The notes beneath the pieces are model-generated. The model saw only the letters and a list, made by a program, of their open reading frames with translations. It ran no database searches and was not told where the DNA came from. Position numbers and translations under genes: made by a program. A stretch of 64,000 nucleotides of DNA, from the NCBI GenBank assembly GCA_019912315.1, contig JAIOJA010000025.1, positions 100,541-164,540 on the forward strand. Direction: 5' to 3'. The first letter of the stretch is position 1; each line of letters opens with the position of its first letter. Of the stretch, positions 25,520 to 32,784 are shown one piece after another. The DNA comes from Planctomycetota bacterium. Lineage in GTDB: Bacteria > Planctomycetota > UBA8742 > UBA2392.

Positions 25520-26125
25520 TTACTTCGCTTCATCCTTCTCGACATCTTCGCCGAGCTCCCGCGCGATCTCGCGGTCGAGTTCTTCGCGGGTGAGCTTTTT
25601 GCGATCGTCGGTGCTGACGCCGATCATCTGGTCGATCTCTTCGTCCGTGACCAGCTGCTCGCCAGCGACGCTGTCCGTCTCGAACAGGCTGTCCTTGCTC
25701 ATGTCCAGGAACAGGTCCATGCGCTGACTCATGGTGTCGGCCTGCATCATGGCATGCTCGAAGTTCTTCTGCGTCGCCTCGAGGTCGGTGGTCTTGTAGA
25801 CCTCGTTGATGCTCTTGCTGACCACGCCCATGGATTCGGCGAAGATGGCGAAGCTTTCCGCCTGGTTCTTCATCTGGAAGGCAGCTTCGATGGTAAGCAG
25901 CTGGCGCTCCAGCATGCGGCGCTGAAACGTTGTGGCCTTCAGTGACTTGCGCACGAAGGCGAGCTGGTCGTTGGCGCCCATGCGCGCGGCCTTGCGGGCC
26001 TTTTCAAGCCAGTCCTCTTCGCTTTTCTGGAGCTCTTTCATCTGGCGCCGGATGCGCTGGATGCCCTTCTTGATCTCCATGTCGCGCGCGATGCGCCGCT
26101 CTTCTTTACTCTTGAATATGCCCAT
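25520..26125 (-). CDS. Snf7/ESCRT-III-like coiled-coil protein A
   Basis: A 201-residue all-helical protein with the layout of ESCRT-III subunits. It has a short N-terminus MGIFKSKEERR, a strongly basic first helix (about 8-48), a turn RMGAND (48-53), a second basic helix (54-105), a Met-rich segment (98-142, MGVVSKSINEVY and then EHAMMQADTMSQRMDLFLDM) and an acidic C-terminal tail (146-201). Length, charge reversal and the Met-rich middle match CHMP2/Vps2-type proteins better than generic coiled coils; the comparison is from memory, not a search. It is the last gene of the cluster containing a Vps4-like ATPase. The C-terminal helix (LTREELDREIAREL) could be an MIT-binding motif. Confidence 0.75.
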   Translation of the reverse strand: MGIFKSKEERRIARDMEIKKGIQRIRRQMKELQKSEEDWLEKARKAARMGANDQLAFVRKSLKATTFQRRMLERQLLTIEAAFQMKNQAESFAIFAESMGVVSKSINEVYKTTDLEATQKNFEHAMMQADTMSQRMDLFLDMSKDSLFETDSVAGEQLVTDEEIDQMIGVSTDDRKKLTREELDREIARELGEDVEKDEAK

Positions 26126-26186
26126 TCTTCAACCTCTGGAACGTGCCGCCAGTGTACCTGTTTTTGCGCGATTGGTCCGCAGGGTT

Positions 26187-27005
26187 TCACTCAACGACAT
26201 GGTAGTTCGCTTCACCCTCGGCAACTCGTTTTCGCGTGTGGGCCGTCATTCTGTCGGCCTTTCGTATCACGGCCTCGATCAATGAACGTCGATCGCGCAG
26301 ATGCCCGCCGAAGTAGGCCTTGGCGAATCTGGCCTTGTCCGTTGCGGTAACGATCGAATGAGGCGCCGAGTGCAGCAGCGCCGCCAGGTCCTTGATCCGC
26401 CAGCGCCGCGTGACGCGCTTGCGAATGTCGGCCCGGTTCAGGTCGGTCACGTACAGTCTGTCACCGCTGCCCACGCGGATATGCACCATGTAGAAATCGC
26501 GGTGGTTCACGCCGCCCTCATGCATGATTTTCAGTATGCGGGCGAGTTCAAGGGTGATGTCCCGGCGGCGCATGGGCTGAGGGTACTCGTTGAATTCCTT
26601 GAGCAGCAACTCCTGAAGACTTGCGGGGGCGTTCAGCCCGACAGTCAACAACGCGGCCTTTGTGACGTTGCCGCCCTCGACTTCTTCGAGACAGGCGGCC
26701 GCGTGCATGGTGGGGATTCCCAGTTCATGCAGGCGCTTCAGGACGTGCCACTCGCGAGACGCCGGGGAATCGAAGCTGCGTGCGAACAGGCGAAAGAAGC
26801 GGGATTCCGGCTGAACGGTGCGATACAGCTTGAGGAACAGGGTTCGCCCTCGGGTTGTTTCCAGCCTGTAGGTCTGGCGTGATTCGAGACGGGCCTTCAC
26901 CACTTGCAGGTCGTCGCGGGATGCAAGCGCGTCCAGATCGAGCAACCCGTCCGCTTCGAGTTCACTCTTCAAATGTGGTGCAACTATTGCTCGGATTTCC
27001 TTCAT
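26187..27005 (-). CDS. Kdo-kinase/InaA-like lipopolysaccharide kinase
   Basis: A 272-residue protein-kinase-like fold of the RfaP/KdkA/InaA group. It has Lys59 (LFLKLY), Glu85 (SREWHVLKRL), the catalytic loop NHRDFYMVHI (167-176) and the metal-binding DLNRA (188-192) in place of DFG. Such enzymes phosphorylate LPS inner-core sugars at the inner membrane. Its start overlaps the stop of the small membrane gene upstream (ATGA), tying it to the ESCRT-like cluster and suggesting an envelope role for that system. Confidence 0.85.
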   Translation of the reverse strand: MKEIRAIVAPHLKSELEADGLLDLDALASRDDLQVVKARLESRQTYRLETTRGRTLFLKLYRTVQPESRFFRLFARSFDSPASREWHVLKRLHELGIPTMHAAACLEEVEGGNVTKAALLTVGLNAPASLQELLLKEFNEYPQPMRRRDITLELARILKIMHEGGVNHRDFYMVHIRVGSGDRLYVTDLNRADIRKRVTRRWRIKDLAALLHSAPHSIVTATDKARFAKAYFGGHLRDRRSLIEAVIRKADRMTAHTRKRVAEGEANYHVVE

Positions 27006-27334
27006 GAAGCTTTCACGGGCCTTGCGACTCGTTTACGGCGAAGGACTAGAGCGACGGTCAAGGGTAGTCCCACGACGGCAGAAACAACCAGGATAGACAG
27101 CATCCCGCGAACGACGCGACTTGGCGCACCCTCGATATTCGGCAGAGTACTGGGAAGCAATGCCCCTACTGATGCAAATGGCTGGAAGGCGAACGAAGCG
27201 TCGTACCCAAGGCCCATAATCGGCAGGGCGACAAAAAGACTCATTACAGGTAGTCCAACACACAGAAATGCGGACAGCGAAGTCCAATCGACAATGAACT
27301 GCAACGGCAAAGGGTAACTCCGACTTCTCGTCAC
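27002..27334 (-). CDS. Small membrane protein in the ESCRT-like cluster
   Basis: A 110-residue protein with two to three predicted membrane segments (about 13-45 and 80-100) and a basic C-terminus (LRRKRVARPVKAS). It begins ten bases after the AAA-ATPase stop and overlaps the kinase start by 4 bp. No family is recognised. Its place in the operon makes it a candidate membrane anchor or receptor for the coiled-coil proteins; that is inference. Confidence 0.65.
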   Translation of the reverse strand: MTRSRSYPLPLQFIVDWTSLSAFLCVGLPVMSLFVALPIMGLGYDASFAFQPFASVGALLPSTLPNIEGAPSRVVRGMLSILVVSAVVGLPLTVALVLRRKRVARPVKAS

Positions 27335-27344
27335 GGTTCGCCCC

Positions 27345-28583
27345 TTAGTCTTCCTCGACGGACCAATCCAGATACCGCTGCATCTCGGCGGGGCTGGTGC
27401 CGGGGCGGATATAGGTCTTGGCGCGCACGAAGTCGGCCAGTGTCAGCGGGCGCACCTTGACCTGGTAGTTGCGAGTGGCCGCGAGCCCCTTGTCAATCAA
27501 CGCCGGCAGATCATCGTTCAAATCTCCGATCATCTGTGACGTGGCCTGCTTGCACAGGCGCTCGATCTCGCGACCGGAGTAGCCTTCCGTGTCGTCGATC
27601 AGTTCATGCAGGTCGAAATCGAGCTCATAGCCCTTCTTCAGCAGGTGAATTTCCAGTATCGCCTTGCGTGTGTCTTCATCCGGCAGCGGGATCAGGATCT
27701 GCTTTTCAAAGCGCGACATCACGGCCGCGTCGATCTCCCAGGGGCGATTTGTCGCGGCGATGGTCAACACGAAAATGTCGCTGCGCCCCTTCTCGGCGAG
27801 ACCGTCAAGCTCGGCCAGGATGGTGGACAGAATGCGGCGTTCGGCGCCGGTCTGTTCCCCGCCGTCGCGGTTGCTGGTGAGAGATTCAAACTCGTCCAGA
27901 AACACGACACTGGGCGAGTTGTCACGCGCGGCGCCGTAGATTTCGCTGATGATCTTGCTGCTTTCGCCAAAGTACTTCGAAAGCACGCCGCTGACTTTCA
28001 CGTTGAAGAACAACGCCTGGCCTTCGGTGGTTACCTTCAGGCTGTTGGACGTCGCCGCGGCAAGCAATGTCTTGCCCGTGCCCGGCGGGCCGTAGAACAG
28101 CATGTTCCGGAAGGTCGTGATCCTTACGCCCTCGGGCGGCTTGGCCAGTGACAGTGCCAGCGTGTACTTGATGTCGCGTTTGGTTTCCTCAAGCCCGCCG
28201 ATGTCATCCCAGGTGATCGTGCTGGTGTGAACGAGCGCGGAGACGGCTTCGCTGATGTTGCTTTCAGGCTCGCCGTCGGCGGTTTCGTGGCGCTGGTCTT
28301 CATCTACGCTGCTGCTGGGTGGCGATGGCAGCTTGGTTTTGCCGTTAGCCTTTTCGTTGCCGACTTCGCGCAGGCGGCGGGCGAAGTCGCGGTATTCAAT
28401 CGCCTTGCGTTTTCGCGCGTACTCCATGCTGCGTGACTGGGCGTACTCGGCGTACTTGAACATGGTCTTGCTGGCGGATTCAAAGTTGCCCGCGGCCGTC
28501 TCAGAGTCACCGGCCTTCCAGGCCATCTTGGCCTTGTGCAGTGCGTCGTCGCACGCGCGTTTTAGTTTAGGTCCAAGGTCCAT
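27345..28583 (-). CDS. Vps4-like AAA ATPase with MIT-like N-terminus
   Basis: A 412-residue protein. Residues about 5-74 form a three-helix MIT-like domain (ACDDALHKAKMAWKAGDSE and following), then a flexible linker (75-120). The AAA core starts at TWDDIGGLEETK and has Walker A GPPGTGKT (165-172), pore loop LSKYFGES (201-208), Walker B VVFLDE (226-231), sensor-1 ATNRPWEID (277-285) and arginine finger Arg291 in SRFEKQILIPLPD. The C-terminal segment PLTLADFVRAKTYIRPGTSP followed by a YLDW helix matches the Vps4 C-terminal helix. This order (MIT-linker-AAA-Vps4_C) is that of Vps4, the ESCRT-III disassembly ATPase. Its neighbours are three Snf7/PspA-like proteins. Confidence 0.88.
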   Translation of the reverse strand: MDLGPKLKRACDDALHKAKMAWKAGDSETAAGNFESASKTMFKYAEYAQSRSMEYARKRKAIEYRDFARRLREVGNEKANGKTKLPSPPSSSVDEDQRHETADGEPESNISEAVSALVHTSTITWDDIGGLEETKRDIKYTLALSLAKPPEGVRITTFRNMLFYGPPGTGKTLLAAATSNSLKVTTEGQALFFNVKVSGVLSKYFGESSKIISEIYGAARDNSPSVVFLDEFESLTSNRDGGEQTGAERRILSTILAELDGLAEKGRSDIFVLTIAATNRPWEIDAAVMSRFEKQILIPLPDEDTRKAILEIHLLKKGYELDFDLHELIDDTEGYSGREIERLCKQATSQMIGDLNDDLPALIDKGLAATRNYQVKVRPLTLADFVRAKTYIRPGTSPAEMQRYLDWSVEED

Positions 28584-28587
28584 AACT

Positions 28588-28662
28588 CAGGTTTCAGGGA
28601 ACAGGTGTCAGGTTTCAACTCTTCTGCCATGGCCCCTGACACCTGGAACCTGGCACCTGCAA
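28588..28662. repeat. Inverted pair of 7-bp tandem arrays inside the operon
   Basis: CAGGTTT CAGGGAA CAGGTGT CAGGTTT (28588-28615), a short spacer, then CCTGACA CCTGGAA CCTGGCA CCTGCAA (28635-28662). The two arrays are opposite in strand sense and could fold into a long imperfect hairpin. They fill the gap between the coiled-coil B gene and the AAA gene. The unit CCTGACA/CCTGAAA also occurs between groES and groEL. Confidence 0.8.
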
Positions 28663-28669
28663 CCCGCCT

Positions 28670-29287
28670 TCAGATTGCCCCCTCTTCGGATTCGAGTTTG
28701 CTGCGCAACTCTGCCTCGGTCTTCAGCGCGGCGTCGAAGTCGCCGCCTTCTTCGGCTTCGTTGATGGTGTCGATCTCGGAGAGGAAGCGGGCTTTTTCCG
28801 GGTCGCTCTCGTCGAGGTCGCCTTCCACTTCCAGGCCCAGGTCGTCAAGCGTCGCGTTCAGCTCATCGAGGTAGGACTCTTCGTCGATCTGCTGCAACGC
28901 CAGCTTGGCGTCGAGCCCGCTGCTGCGAATGCGCTGCAGCAACTTGTTGACGCCTTCCTTGTCTTTGCGCTTTTCCAGGCGCTCAAGCCCGCGGATGTAC
29001 TTCTTTAAAGCGATGCCTTCGAGGTTGCTGACCTTGGCCGCGCGCCGGTTGAAAGCGAAGTCGTGCTTGATGTCTTTGAGTTCTTCCCAGACGTAATCGA
29101 CCTCGATGCTGTTGCCCTCGCGGCGCGCGCGTTTGATCTGCTCGATCAGTGACGCCTGGCGCGTACTGAGCTTGCGCAACTCCATGAAGTATTTACGGCG
29201 TTCGCGCTCGACTTCGCGCAGCTTGACCTTCAGCTTGCGTAGGTCGACCCTGGTGCCGAACAGACTTGCAAAGAAGTTTGCAACCAT
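28670..29287 (-). CDS. Snf7/PspA-like coiled-coil protein B
   Basis: A 205-residue helical protein with an AGGTGGAG ribosome site. It starts with an amphipathic segment (MVANFFASLFG), then a very basic helix (14-57), a turn (REGNS), a second helix (61-105), shorter helices, and an acidic C-terminal half (135-205) ending in a helix EAELRSKLESEEG that could bind an MIT domain. The charge pattern and helix order again match the ESCRT-III/PspA plan. It lies four bases from coiled-coil C and directly before the Vps4-like ATPase. Confidence 0.7.
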   Translation of the reverse strand: MVANFFASLFGTRVDLRKLKVKLREVERERRKYFMELRKLSTRQASLIEQIKRARREGNSIEVDYVWEELKDIKHDFAFNRRAAKVSNLEGIALKKYIRGLERLEKRKDKEGVNKLLQRIRSSGLDAKLALQQIDEESYLDELNATLDDLGLEVEGDLDESDPEKARFLSEIDTINEAEEGGDFDAALKTEAELRSKLESEEGAI

Positions 29288-29290
29288 CGA

Positions 29291-29977
29291 TTACTCCACC
29301 TGCGCTTCAGGCTCTTCTTTGGATTTCTTTGGGGACTTCTCAGGCGACTTCTCAGGCTTGCTTTCCTGCTCGCGGGCCATGATTTCCGCTTCGATTTCGC
29401 GAAGGTCGGCGTCCATGACGCGCTGCCTGGTCTCTTCGCCCATGATTTCCTTTTCCAGCTTTCGCAGGTCTTCCTTGTCTTTGCTGGTCAGCACGTCGTC
29501 GCGGCTCTGGACTACGCCCTCGCCGGTTTCTACCGAGTCGCGGAACTTTTCCATGCCTTCTTCGAAATCGAGCATCACGCGTTCCACCACGCTCTGTTCG
29601 ATGCCCCGCAAGTCCATCGCCTCCATGGCCTGGATCTTGCCGACCAGGTTCATGTGAAGCTCGATGTTCTTGTTCAGGATGTCGGCCTTGAGCTTCAGGT
29701 TCCCCATCTGCGTGCGCGTGCGTTTGATCTGCAGCAGCACGAATTCTTTTTCGCGATCGCCAACGCGCCCTGACTTGATGTTTTCAATGCTCGCGCGCTC
29801 GGACAGCTCAAGGCGGGCCAGCTCCTGTCGCGTCTTGCGCAGCTCCACTTCGTTGCGGGTGATCAACTCATCGAGATGCTCCAGCATCTCGCGGGTGGAG
29901 TGCGCGTCCTTGATCACCTGCTCAGCTTCGCCGGAGGTGCCCTGGATCATCTGTTTTATGCGCTCTAGCAGGTTCAT
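29291..29977 (-). CDS. PspA/ESCRT-III-like coiled-coil protein C
   Basis: A 228-residue helical protein. The N-terminal MNLLERIKQMIQGT is amphipathic, as in PspA/Vipp1. A helical hairpin follows (about 17-66 and 76-121, with a turn at KSGRVGD), then helices to about 203, and a Lys/Pro/Glu tail (205-228, SPEKSPKKSKEEP) that resembles the Pro-containing type of MIT-binding motif. Its ATG overlaps the preceding stop by one base (TAATG), so it is in the same operon. The assignment to the superfamily is by pattern only. Confidence 0.68.
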   Translation of the reverse strand: MNLLERIKQMIQGTSGEAEQVIKDAHSTREMLEHLDELITRNEVELRKTRQELARLELSERASIENIKSGRVGDREKEFVLLQIKRTRTQMGNLKLKADILNKNIELHMNLVGKIQAMEAMDLRGIEQSVVERVMLDFEEGMEKFRDSVETGEGVVQSRDDVLTSKDKEDLRKLEKEIMGEETRQRVMDADLREIEAEIMAREQESKPEKSPEKSPKKSKEEPEAQVE

Positions 29978-30753
29978 TACGCCCTTACGCTTTCAAAACG
30001 GTCACGCTGGATGATCAGGTCCCCGCCCACGCTCTTTACGTCAATGCCGGGTGTGCGTTCGGCGTATAGCATCGCGCGGTCCGTGACTAGGTCTTTGCCG
30101 ACGGCCGTCCGACTTGCCAGGTCTTCGATCAGCATGAACCCCCCCGGCTCTTTCAACTCTATCGCGCTGGCCAGTGCGGAATCAACCCGCGCGATCTTCT
30201 GATCAACGGGCTCCGGGTCAAACAGGTTCTCGAACAACGCCGGAAGAATTGCGCCATCGCCGGGGGGCGTGACGGCCCAGCCCGGATCGGCGTATTCAAT
30301 CAGTGTCGCGCGCCAGTTTGTGCCTCCGCTGAGGGCGCGCATGACTTCATCTGAGTGCCCGAGGCCGTCATCGTCGCGAACGCCTGCGATTCCCATGATG
30401 AAGTAAATGTCCGGACGTAAAGGCGCCAAGGACCAGCGCACAGTTTCATGGATGGCTTCCGGGGTGAACCGGTGTTTACGGAAGGCGAAGTCAAGCACGA
30501 CACAGATCTTCACAGCGGTCAGCCCCAGCATTGGTTTGTGCAGCAACCCTACGGATTCGCGGCGTGCGAAGTCACCCTTGCCGCTGGGGGAAAGATCGCC
30601 GCTGCGATAACTGCGGCGACTGACGCGATTGGGGTCAAAGTCGTAAAGTGAGCCCTCGCCGGGATGCGGCAGCATCCGCTGGCGGATAATGCGGCTCTCA
30701 AGCCCTGAAAACAGGCTTTGCATGGCGGATAGTGAATTCGAGCGGTCGGCCAT
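29977..30753 (-). CDS. Unknown first gene of the ESCRT-like cluster, possible C-terminal winged helix
   Basis: The ORF is open up to 30969, but that upstream part crosses a repeat, so I place the start at 30753 (MADRSNSLSAMQS, 258 residues). The middle (about 78-175) looks alpha/beta with hydrophobic strands KICVVLDFAF and DIYFIMGIAG. Residues about 188-250 look like a winged helix: helices DSALASAIEL, LIEDLASRTAV and DLVTDRAMLYAE, then a beta wing DVKSVGGDLIIQRD. Winged helices occur in ESCRT-II and as ESCRT recruiters in archaea, but the link here is speculation. It overlaps coiled-coil C by one base. Confidence 0.6.
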   Translation of the reverse strand: MADRSNSLSAMQSLFSGLESRIIRQRMLPHPGEGSLYDFDPNRVSRRSYRSGDLSPSGKGDFARRESVGLLHKPMLGLTAVKICVVLDFAFRKHRFTPEAIHETVRWSLAPLRPDIYFIMGIAGVRDDDGLGHSDEVMRALSGGTNWRATLIEYADPGWAVTPPGDGAILPALFENLFDPEPVDQKIARVDSALASAIELKEPGGFMLIEDLASRTAVGKDLVTDRAMLYAERTPGIDVKSVGGDLIIQRDRFESVRA

Positions 30754-30951: not shown

Positions 30952-32784
30952 TTGGCGCAAACGTATCACGATGACGACGAGTTCCTTGGCAAGGCGTACG
31001 ACGCCAGGCTGATCAAACGCCTGATTCCGTACGCCCGGCCTTATCTTGGCCTGGTCTTCTGGGGCACTGCTTTCATGCTGCTGGCCGCGGCATGTGAGCT
31101 GGTGATCCCGTTGATTGTTAGGGATACGGTCAACGGTCCTTTCATTGTGCTGGGCGACCAGGCCTCAACGCCTGCGGCGAAGAATGGCGCGTGGGCAACG
31201 CTGGGGTGGTTCGCGTTCGGCTTTGTGGGGCTGGTCGCCGTGCAATTCGTCGCGAGGTTCGGCAATACCTATCTGTTCCAGAAGCTCGGGCAAAAGGCAG
31301 TGCTGGATCTGCGGCAGGACGCCTATGCGCACATCCAGCGCCTGCCGCTGCGCTTTTTTGATCGTAACCCGGTAGGTCGGCTGGTTACCCGCGTAACCAG
31401 CGACGTTGAGGCCATTGGTGAAGTGTTTGCCAGCGGGCTGGTACAGCTGGCCGGCGACGCGATCATTGTGGTTGGCGCCCTTACGCTGATGATGTTCCTG
31501 AGCTGGCAGCTTGCGCTGTTTGTTGTGGCCGGCATTCCGGTAATGGCGCTGCTGACGTGGGTGTTCCGAGGGCGGGCACGCGGCGCGTTTCGAGAAATGC
31601 GAGTGAAGCTGGCGGTCGTGAACAGCTTTCTCAACGAGACGATCCAGGGCTGGCGCATTACCCGCATTTTCGGCACCGAGAAACAGATGGCCGACAAGTT
31701 CGACTGCCGCAGCGCCGACTATCGTGACGCGACGTACCGCACGGTTTTCAACTTCAGCCTGTTCTTCCCGATCGTTGAAATAGCCGGCACGGGCACAGTG
31801 CTGCTGGTCGTGTGGTGGGGGACGCGCAGCATTTTCGGCGGGTCGCTCGACTACGGCACGTTCTTCGCTTTCTTTCTGTACACGCCCATGATGTTCCGGC
31901 CGATCCGGGAAATGAGCGAAAAGTACAACGTGCTGCAAAGCGCGATGGCAAGCGCTGAGCGGCTGTTTCGAATTCTGGACACCAAGAACGATGTCGAGAA
32001 TCCAGCCGAGCCCAAGGCACCGTCCATCACCGGCGAGATCGAGTTCCGCAACGTCTGGTTCGCCTATAATGATGAAGAGTGGGTGCTGAAGGACGTCAGC
32101 TTCAAGGTAGCGGCGGGAAGTTCGGTCGCGCTGGTGGGGGCAACTGGCAGCGGCAAGACTACGATCATCAGTCTGCTGATGCGTTTTTACGATATCCAGC
32201 GGGGAAGCATCCTGATTGATGGCGTGGACATTCGCGAAATGAACAAAGACCACCTGCGCACGGCTTTCAGCCTGGTGTTGCAGGACGTGTTCCTGTTTGC
32301 GGGGACGGTGCTGGATAACATCAGACTGGGCAACAAGGACATCTCGCGCGAGCAGGTGGAGGCCGCGGCCAAGGTTGTTCATGCGCACGAATTCATCGAA
32401 AGCCTGAACGGCAGCTACGATGCCATTGTCGCTGAGCGCGGCGCGACCTTCAGCGCGGGGCAGCGTCAGTTGCTCGCGTTCGCGCGCGCACTGGCCTACG
32501 ACCCGAAGATTCTCGTGCTCGACGAAGCAACGTCGAACATCGACAGCGAGACCGAAGCCCTGATCCAGGATGCGCTGGCGCAACTCATGCAGGGGCGCAC
32601 GGCCGTAGTCGTCGCGCACCGGTTAAGCACAATTACACACAGCGACAACATCCTCGTCCTGCACAAGGGCGAAGTCGTCGAGCAAGGAACACACAACCAG
32701 CTACTGCAACAGGGCGGGCGCTACGCCAAGCTCTACCAGCTCCAATTCAGCAACGGAGCGAATGCCGAAACCAAAGCCGGGTGA
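30952..32784 (+). CDS. MsbA-like ABC exporter (permease-ATPase fusion)
   Basis: A 610-residue half-transporter starting at TTG with GGAAGG upstream. The membrane domain has six predicted helices (about 28-320). The ATPase domain has Walker A GATGSGKT (396-403), Q-loop VLQD, signature SAGQR (501-505, a variant of SGGQ), Walker B ILVLDE (520-525) and the H-loop AHRLST. The sequence resembles YheH/MsbA-type lipid or drug exporters acting as dimers in the inner membrane. Substrate unknown. It is divergent from the ESCRT-like cluster. Confidence 0.93.
   Translation: MAQTYHDDDEFLGKAYDARLIKRLIPYARPYLGLVFWGTAFMLLAAACELVIPLIVRDTVNGPFIVLGDQASTPAAKNGAWATLGWFAFGFVGLVAVQFVARFGNTYLFQKLGQKAVLDLRQDAYAHIQRLPLRFFDRNPVGRLVTRVTSDVEAIGEVFASGLVQLAGDAIIVVGALTLMMFLSWQLALFVVAGIPVMALLTWVFRGRARGAFREMRVKLAVVNSFLNETIQGWRITRIFGTEKQMADKFDCRSADYRDATYRTVFNFSLFFPIVEIAGTGTVLLVVWWGTRSIFGGSLDYGTFFAFFLYTPMMFRPIREMSEKYNVLQSAMASAERLFRILDTKNDVENPAEPKAPSITGEIEFRNVWFAYNDEEWVLKDVSFKVAAGSSVALVGATGSGKTTIISLLMRFYDIQRGSILIDGVDIREMNKDHLRTAFSLVLQDVFLFAGTVLDNIRLGNKDISREQVEAAAKVVHAHEFIESLNGSYDAIVAERGATFSAGQRQLLAFARALAYDPKILVLDEATSNIDSETEALIQDALAQLMQGRTAVVVAHRLSTITHSDNILVLHKGEVVEQGTHNQLLQQGGRYAKLYQLQFSNGANAETKAG

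Follow-up and report, generated by a model that had tools for sequence, protein, structure and literature searches.

Described Relatives and the Planctomycete Operon

The closest described systems are the archaeal endosomal sorting complex required for transport (ESCRT) and Cdv machineries, which comprise ESCRT-III and Vps4 in Asgard archaea and CdvB and CdvC in crenarchaea. A review from 2023 describes bacteria as having no clear Vps4 homolog (PMC7615534; this and the other papers are cited from excerpts). Ravi et al. (2024) reported Vps4-like ATPases in bacteria and took them as transferred from archaea, with a TPR/6TM protein taking the place of Snf7 in the cases where transfer of that gene had occurred, and they noted that some bacterial operons pair PspA/Snf7 with AAA+ genes (e.g., OGG56892.1) (PMC11237479). 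Here, we describe an operon within a 64,000-nucleotide stretch of a Planctomycetota genome (assembly GCA_019912315.1, contig JAIOJA010000025.1, positions 100,541 to 164,540, hereafter the window; the host genome is a 4.0-Mb draft in 87 contigs) that encodes an ATPase with features of Vps4 and three coiled-coil proteins designated CCA, CCB, and CCC. We consider it probable that the operon combines a Vps4-type ATPase, a Snf7/ESCRT-III protein (CCA), and two coiled-coil proteins of ESCRT-III-like shape (CCB and CCC), and that the coiled-coil proteins likely form a membrane filament that would be pulled apart by the ATPase. The system is best read as an ESCRT-III/Vps4 system in a bacterial form.

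Like the archaeal ESCRT/Cdv loci, the operon has an MIT-AAA ATPase that falls on the Vps4 side and adjoins a Snf7-family gene; unlike them, it is found in a bacterial host, its CCC-CCB-CCA set has two members unmatched in the archaeal loci, and its ATPases form a clade of their own. The operon consists of seven minus-strand open reading frames (ORFs) in a row at window positions 25520–30753, with successive gaps of −1, 3, 86, 10, −4, and 61 bp, in the order 258-aa protein, CCC, CCB, ATPase, hydrophobic ORF, WaaP/Kdo-type kinase, and CCA (table 1). An earlier note on this DNA, made from the letters alone, had described this tight row and its gaps correctly, as it had the lengths of the coiled-coil proteins (201, 205, and 228 aa), and had proposed a self-contained membrane-remodeling machine tied to lipopolysaccharide (LPS). 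The core of that proposal, the ATPase together with CCA, held up in our analysis and CCB and CCC likely belong to it; the tie to LPS did not hold, and the function of the machine is one that we infer.

The ATPase

The ATPase is a single AAA cassette with Walker A and B motifs, an aromatic pore loop, and an SRF motif, the combination that we took as the mark of Vps4. These motifs are seen as GPPGTGKT at residue 165, VFLDE at residue 227, the pore-loop stretch KYFGES, and SRFEK at residue 290, with ATNRPW at residue 277. In Pfam searches, the window protein matched AAA (E value 4.3e-33), AAA_lid_3 (7.9e-7), and Vps4_C (PF09336), the last with an E value of 0.015 that is under the curated cut-off; 14 of 18 members of the ATPase family match Vps4_C at an E value of 0.1 or less (best 4.8e-5). 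In a phmmer search against PDB, residues 4–352 align with residues 7–355 of human VPS4B (7l9x), which is the sole match aligned from the N-terminus onward among the best 60 of 275 rows. Cdc48 tops this ranking because of the AAA core.

A profile built from 15 ATPase N-termini (83 positions) matches the MIT domains of VPS4B/SKD1 in a single stretch with E values of 1.2e-4, 1.8e-4, 2.5e-4, and 4.7e-4, the best of which (1wr0) spans profile positions 4–73, and it picks up the start of a Lokiarchaeal Vps4 with an E value of 1.6e-8 in a database of about a dozen proteins. Two observations count against an MIT domain: designed TPR proteins outscore MIT when summed over their repeats (best 1.5e-8), and among the weaker single matches of the profile a designed helical repeat scores 0.011 and ribosomal protein bS20 scores 0.02. 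The Pfam MIT model (PF04212), which does match a Lokiarchaeal Vps4, has no match in the genome of the window and none on the ATPase family, and the case for an MIT domain therefore rests on the family profile instead. Of the two ends that the earlier note had assigned to the protein, the MIT domain is thus recovered by the family profile and not by PF04212, and the Vps4_C-like helix is recovered in most relatives and below the cut-off in the window protein itself.

To place the ATPase among its relatives we used an unrooted tree of 93 of 116 rows, which holds archaeal and bacterial sequences, without eukaryotic Vps4, katanin, or spastin, has some long branches, and represents the window ATPase by a protein that is 91% identical (locus L067; loci and genomes are referred to by L and G numbers). 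The bacterial ATPases form one clade (support 100/98), to which two Acidilobaceae proteins are joined by a long branch (99/91), as are five rows of DPANN single-AAA proteins (100/99). Asgard and Bathyarchaeal Vps4 proteins lie next to this clade, and Cdc48, FtsH, and a second AAA family found in some of the operons lie beyond a branch with support of 100/95. If the root falls among Cdc48, FtsH, and the second AAA family, the bacterial ATPases would belong to the Vps4 group. The VPS4B alignment, the MIT match of the family profile, and the position in the tree together bear out the proposed MIT-AAA ATPase of Vps4 type. The DPANN single-AAA proteins L115, L116, L119, and L134 (Aenigmatarchaeota and Microcaldota) group with the bacterial Vps4-type clade.

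CCA, a Snf7/ESCRT-III Protein

CCA of the window matches the Pfam Snf7 model (PF03357) with an E value of 4.1e-5 and 23.8 bits (cut-off 27.3), and 19 of 22 CCA family members match it at an E value of 0.1 or less (best 1.3e-5), with every other Pfam family hit by at most three of them. When the genome of the window and 59 relatives were searched with Snf7, 21 of these 60 genomes had matches at an E value of 0.01, all under the cut-off, as was the Sulfolobus positive control; two of the 21 (G034 and G035) have no CCA by profile and their Snf7 matches are something else. PF03357 is precomputed on 11 of 120 listed CCA homologs (2,001 were found), where the readable source names are "hypothetical protein." Against PDB, the CCA profile has five matches, the top three being CHMP3, CHMP3, and CHMP2A (E values 0.006, 0.013, and 0.25).

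A deep CCA profile of 159 sequences, none of them from an archaeal locus, was run on 3,824 ORFs from 80 loci. It matches 12 of the 503 ORFs in 22 archaeal vps4-type loci (E values 3e-5 to 5.6e-3, with a limit of 0.05); all 12 adjoin vps4 and come from Loki- or Hermodarchaea, with no match in the ten remaining archaeal loci, and the four of the 12 that were tested all match Snf7 over the cut-off. A shallower profile of 22 rows recovers none of those 12 archaeal ORFs. The most distant bacterial CCA proteins are weak for Snf7 (L099, 0.0016; L113, 0.028; L096, no match). On the strength of the Snf7 matches, the CHMP3 and CHMP2A hits, and the archaeal vps4 neighbors, all of which are sequence comparisons, CCA is a divergent Snf7/ESCRT-III protein, as the earlier note had it.

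The first 100 residues of CCA are basic and the remainder is acidic in 22 of 22 members, and the C-terminal residues D184, I187, and L191 are at least 90% conserved, with a spacing of 0/+3/+7, in alignment A1, which covers the window protein together with 21 of 22 relatives (near-identical or truncated rows were dropped from this and from alignments A2, A3, and A4, which hold 18 of 21, 16 of 17, and 17 of 23 rows). The MIM1 consensus has a spacing of 0/+3/+7, and the C-terminal helix of CCA presumably resembles it, with binding to MIT being putative. Among MIM1-like motifs of Asgard archaea, leucine is likewise replaced by isoleucine at some positions (PMC7240154).

CCB and CCC

For CCB, the structure model (pLDDT, a model confidence score, 76.7) predicts helices at 5–10, 16–56, and 60–106, that is, a long hairpin preceded by an N-terminal helix and followed by short helices and an acidic tail, and that for CCC (73.6) predicts an N-terminal helix at 3–11, a hairpin at 28–68/74–124, a helix at 129–156, and an acidic tail of low confidence. 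Both models thus show an N-terminal helix and a long α1–α2 hairpin, with fold matches that are not significant: entries for ESCRT-III, PspA, or Vipp1, counted by title, make up 15 of the best 50 Foldseek rows for CCB and 9 of the best 50 for CCC, none of them significant. The best PDB fold matches of CCB are CdvB, again not significant, and UvsY, bMERB, and BAR-like folds come out on top for CCC. By sequence, neither protein has a telling match in Pfam or PDB, and CCC has no Pfam match at all. The first 100 residues of CCB are basic and its remainder acidic in 19 of 19 members; the remainder of CCC is acidic in 17 of 17, and a net positive charge over its first 100 residues is limited to 8 of 17, so that the proposed division into a basic N-terminal and an acidic C-terminal part applies to CCA and CCB and, for CCC, to the acidic part only. 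In CCC, the conserved residues that might form part of an MIT-interacting motif are L171, L174, E175, and E177.

Profile–profile comparison with hhalign, from which two PspA rows were dropped, gave E values of 3.2e-4 over 79 columns for CCC and PspA (0.0072 with shallower profiles), 4.4e-4 for CCA and PspA, and 0.0019 for CCB and Asgard sequences. Control coiled coils scored 0.11–0.27 against PspA, and unrelated background reaches down to 0.009. The CCC–PspA and CCB–Asgard values are below those of reversed nulls and control coiled coils; a cleaned set of control coiled coils raised the background and lowered our trust in CCB. The values for CCC and CCA suggest that bacterial PspA/Vipp1 (PF04012) may belong to the same superfamily, but unlike PspA/Vipp1 none of the three window proteins has a PF04012 (PspA_IM30) match at an E value of 1, and PspA identity was rejected on that ground. 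The sequence link of CCB and CCC to ESCRT-III is weak; from their architecture and context both are likely ESCRT-III-like. The claim of three ESCRT-III/PspA-like proteins therefore stands by sequence for CCA and is likely by architecture and context for the other two.

A rival explanation takes CCA as the sole ESCRT-III protein, with CCB and CCC as unrelated coiled-coil adaptors that recruit a CCA homopolymer and serve cargo or targeting in a role like that of CdvA or the ESCRT-I/II stalks. It draws on the fact that sequence homology is secure for CCA alone, on the CCB and CCC profiles having matched nothing in the 22 archaeal loci, and on the preference of CCC for other helical hairpins among its fold matches. 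Yet the helix-plus-hairpin shape predicted for both, the CdvB matches and charge distribution of CCB, and the hhalign values of both proteins relative to their controls all speak against it, and we regard it as rather unlikely.

Conservation and Distribution of the Gene Set

The order CCC-CCB-ATPase-CCA is kept in 17 of 25 regions fetched from relatives. Across 294 evenly sampled genomes from the phylum, including that of the window, the ATPase is present in 44, CCA in 53, both in 42, and neither in 239 (Fisher p = 4e-38, uncorrected for kinship); where both occur, they are on one contig in 39 of 42 genomes and at most 1.5 kb apart in 38. All named relatives with 71–92% ATPase identity (L056–L067 and L094) are Planctomycetota. 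Among 49 bacterial ATPase loci (58 from named contigs minus nine proteobacterial loci, which have no CCA, CCB, or CCC match), CCA is found in 41, CCB in 36, CCC in 39, all three in 31, and none in four, two of which (L098 and L100) stop within 100 bases of the ATPase gene on one side. The gene set is thus conserved among relatives, and the outcomes that the earlier note had named as speaking against its proposal (generic coiled-coil hits only, no MIT fold, and no conserved gene order) are not what we obtained.

Outside Planctomycetota, at least part of the set occurs in distant relatives from Chloroflexota (L096), Desulfobacter latus (L113), and Opitutales (L112), and the ATPase and CCA lie side by side in the Chloroflexota metagenome-assembled genome and in D. 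latus. The deep profiles contain rows from most of the loci scanned and the hand-added CCA of L113, and their E values for loci hold partly by construction; with shallower profiles the values are 3e-9 for CCC and 2e-4 for CCA of L113, 4e-27 for CCA of L096, and 2e-5 for CCB of L112. Eleven of the 294 genomes have CCA and no Vps4-type ATPase, and nine of these regions were fetched. Three carry the trio CCC, CCB, and CCA, and no AAA ORF was seen in them (L226, L227, and L231), three carry the trio CCC-CCB-CCA with a different AAA ORF downstream (L225, L228, and L232), and three carry CCA and a different AAA with no recognized CCB or CCC (L229, L230, and L233). Because the trio persists in genomes without the Vps4-type ATPase, CCA, CCB, and CCC are a unit of their own. 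An MIT-like start was seen among the other AAA proteins in L233 and in the partial ORF of L234, and none was seen in L225 and L229.

Two further observations concern these loci. In L226, CCB and CCA are separated by a lipoprotein-like ORF of 200 aa. The nine proteobacterial loci (L101 and L104–L111, Alphaproteobacteria with one labelled Gammaproteobacteria) encode Vps4-type MIT-AAA ATPases, 38–40% identical, with no match to the three coiled-coil families nearby; upstream in L101, L104, and L110 is a gene with MP(Q/T)GSISSS in its product, which is amidase-like by eye.

Accessory Genes and Surroundings

The family of the first gene is present in 14 of the 25 related regions, in two of them weakly, and had been labelled a possible winged-helix protein; no match stood out in Pfam or PDB searches, which gives that label no support. 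The kinase matches the Pfam Kdo model (5.4e-28) and the RfaP model (6.2e-39, under its cut-off). It occurs in 10 of the 25 regions, all from the family of the window, and is absent from the remaining four regions of this family as well as from all 11 outside it, and from these sequence surveys it appears to be a family-specific passenger or accessory gene. The 110-aa hydrophobic ORF has no Pfam match and no match in the 25 related regions, which include the same genus; it is probably outside the core system and may have been inserted recently or may not be a gene. Because the kinase is limited to one family and the membrane ORF is matched in no relative, we rejected the proposed link to LPS or envelope modification as a general feature.

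One sister genus encodes a protein of about 363–394 aa between CCB and the ATPase with two MIT-like domains (E values 8.5e-12 and 2.2e-8 in L064, from a small set); a copy in L038 has no AAA match. VTA1 has tandem MIT domains (PMC7618577), and the arrangement resembles Vta1/LIP5 in this respect; the protein is absent from the operon in the window. Many distant operons have a second AAA ATPase after CCA, which in the tree is on a branch separate from the Vps4-type ATPases. Divergent from the operon, an ABC exporter (ABC_membrane and ABC_tran, window 30952–32784) is encoded on the plus strand, with its start some 0.2 kb upstream of the 258-aa gene; it adjoins the operon in 12 of 14 regions of the family of the window, the exceptions (L034 and L055) both being close to contig ends.

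Table 1. Features of the operon in window coordinates, and of additional proteins in related loci
Feature	Position	Strand	Assignment or basis
First gene, 258 aa	29977..30753	-	Conserved family; 14/25 related regions, 11-row alignment
CCC, 228 aa	29291..29977	-	Likely ESCRT-III/PspA-like by architecture; structure model and hhalign to PspA
CCB, 205 aa	28670..29287	-	Likely ESCRT-III-like by architecture; predicted helix and hairpin, acidic tail
Vps4-type ATPase, 412 aa	27345..28583	-	PDB phmmer, Pfam, tree (91% identical relative as stand-in)
ATPase MIT domain, residues 5-74	28362..28571	-	Profile of 15 N-termini against VPS4B/SKD1 MIT
ATPase AAA core, residues 161-300	27684..28103	-	Pfam PF00004 and motifs
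ATPase Vps4_C-like C-terminal helix, residues 374-408	27360..27464	-	Pfam PF09336, weak in window protein
Small hydrophobic ORF, 110 aa, GTG start	27002..27334	-	ORF call
WaaP/Kdo-type kinase, 272 aa	26187..27005	-	Pfam Kdo
CCA, Snf7/ESCRT-III protein, 201 aa	25520..26125	-	Pfam Snf7, deep CCA profile
Candidate MIT-binding helix, CCA C-terminus (D184-x-x-I187-x-x-x-L191)	25553..25576	-	Alignment A1; binding putative
Tandem-MIT protein	L063 4745-5929; L064 4847-5998; L065 4860-5951		MIT-like profile matches
Second AAA ATPase downstream of CCA	L071-L075, L077, L079, L084, L089, L090, L092, L093, L103		

Proposed Mechanism and Cellular Role

In the mechanism that we propose, CCA, CCB, and CCC would each fold into a long hairpin preceded by an N-terminal helix, as predicted for CCB and CCC and expected of CCA by homology, and would co-polymerize on the inner face of the membrane, as suggested by their conserved grouping, which is kept in some genomes without the ATPase. 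The ATPase may grip their acidic C-terminal helices with its MIT domain and, by homology to Vps4, would as a hexamer thread subunits via its aromatic pore loop, and this threading would cause the polymer to constrict and to bend, seal, or cut the membrane. In the sister genus, the tandem-MIT protein probably acts as a Vta1/LIP5-like cofactor.

The cellular job of the system is most likely envelope membrane remodeling or repair and not the replacement of FtsZ; a role in division is possible but less likely. PspA is over its cut-off in none of the 16 genomes from the family of the window and in 11 of the 60 genomes overall, which leaves a repair role open for the system in that family. A more specific proposal, in which the operon would be a Cdv-like cytokinesis apparatus carrying out the final membrane scission in FtsZ-less planctomycetes, can point to the literature, where Planctomycetes are described as lacking FtsZ, with the driver of their division unidentified (PMC6952346), and where archaeal ESCRT-III/Vps4 divides cells (PMC7615534); FtsZ reaches its cut-off in none of the 60 genomes, two of which have weak matches. 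However, it stays under the cut-off in these genomes with or without the ATPase, the ATPase is present in just 44 of the 294 genomes sampled, and FtsZ was matched in each of the five ATPase carriers searched outside the planctomycetes, over the cut-off in four of them. The scarcity of the ATPase in the phylum and the FtsZ of the other carriers also weaken FtsZ replacement as a general job, and we consider the cytokinesis apparatus doubtful. We give similarly little weight to the bolder idea of a full third ESCRT branch in bacteria, made up of a composite filament of three subunits, its Vps4 motor, and a tandem-MIT cofactor resembling Vta1 in one genus, that would cut the membrane neck at division or budding in those FtsZ-less Planctomycetota that have retained it.

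The weakest explanation, a generic AAA chaperone operon in which an unfoldase akin to Cdc48/FtsH, with an N-terminal bundle like that of TPR proteins, acts on soluble coiled-coil substrates with no membrane link, would accommodate the designed TPR matches, the rank of Cdc48 above VPS4, and the proteobacterial ATPases that lack the coiled-coil genes, but the strongest single-stretch matches, covering nearly the full length of the N-terminus, are VPS4 MIT domains, and with the position in the tree and the tight linkage to a Snf7-family gene they make it very improbable.

Implications for ESCRT in Bacteria

Where Snf7 is displaced in the transferred Vps4-like cases of Ravi et al. (2024), here a Snf7-family gene and two companions stand beside the ATPase, and the string "Planctomycet" is absent from the main text of that paper, its supplementary tables aside (PMC11237479). 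Among the literature matches listed, a scope outside which preprints, supplementary tables, and most subscription papers fall, we recognized no paper that describes this operon. Many Planctomycetota carry linked Vps4-type and Snf7-family genes in one operon, which contradicts the published view that bacteria lack such a system. One carrier, D. latus, is the named strain AcRS2, which we take to be in culture, and the system is therefore testable there. The operon bears on the origin of ESCRT, that is, on transfer versus an age greater than the archaeal–bacterial split, and it provides a concrete candidate for membrane remodeling in bacteria that have elaborate membranes and divide without FtsZ.

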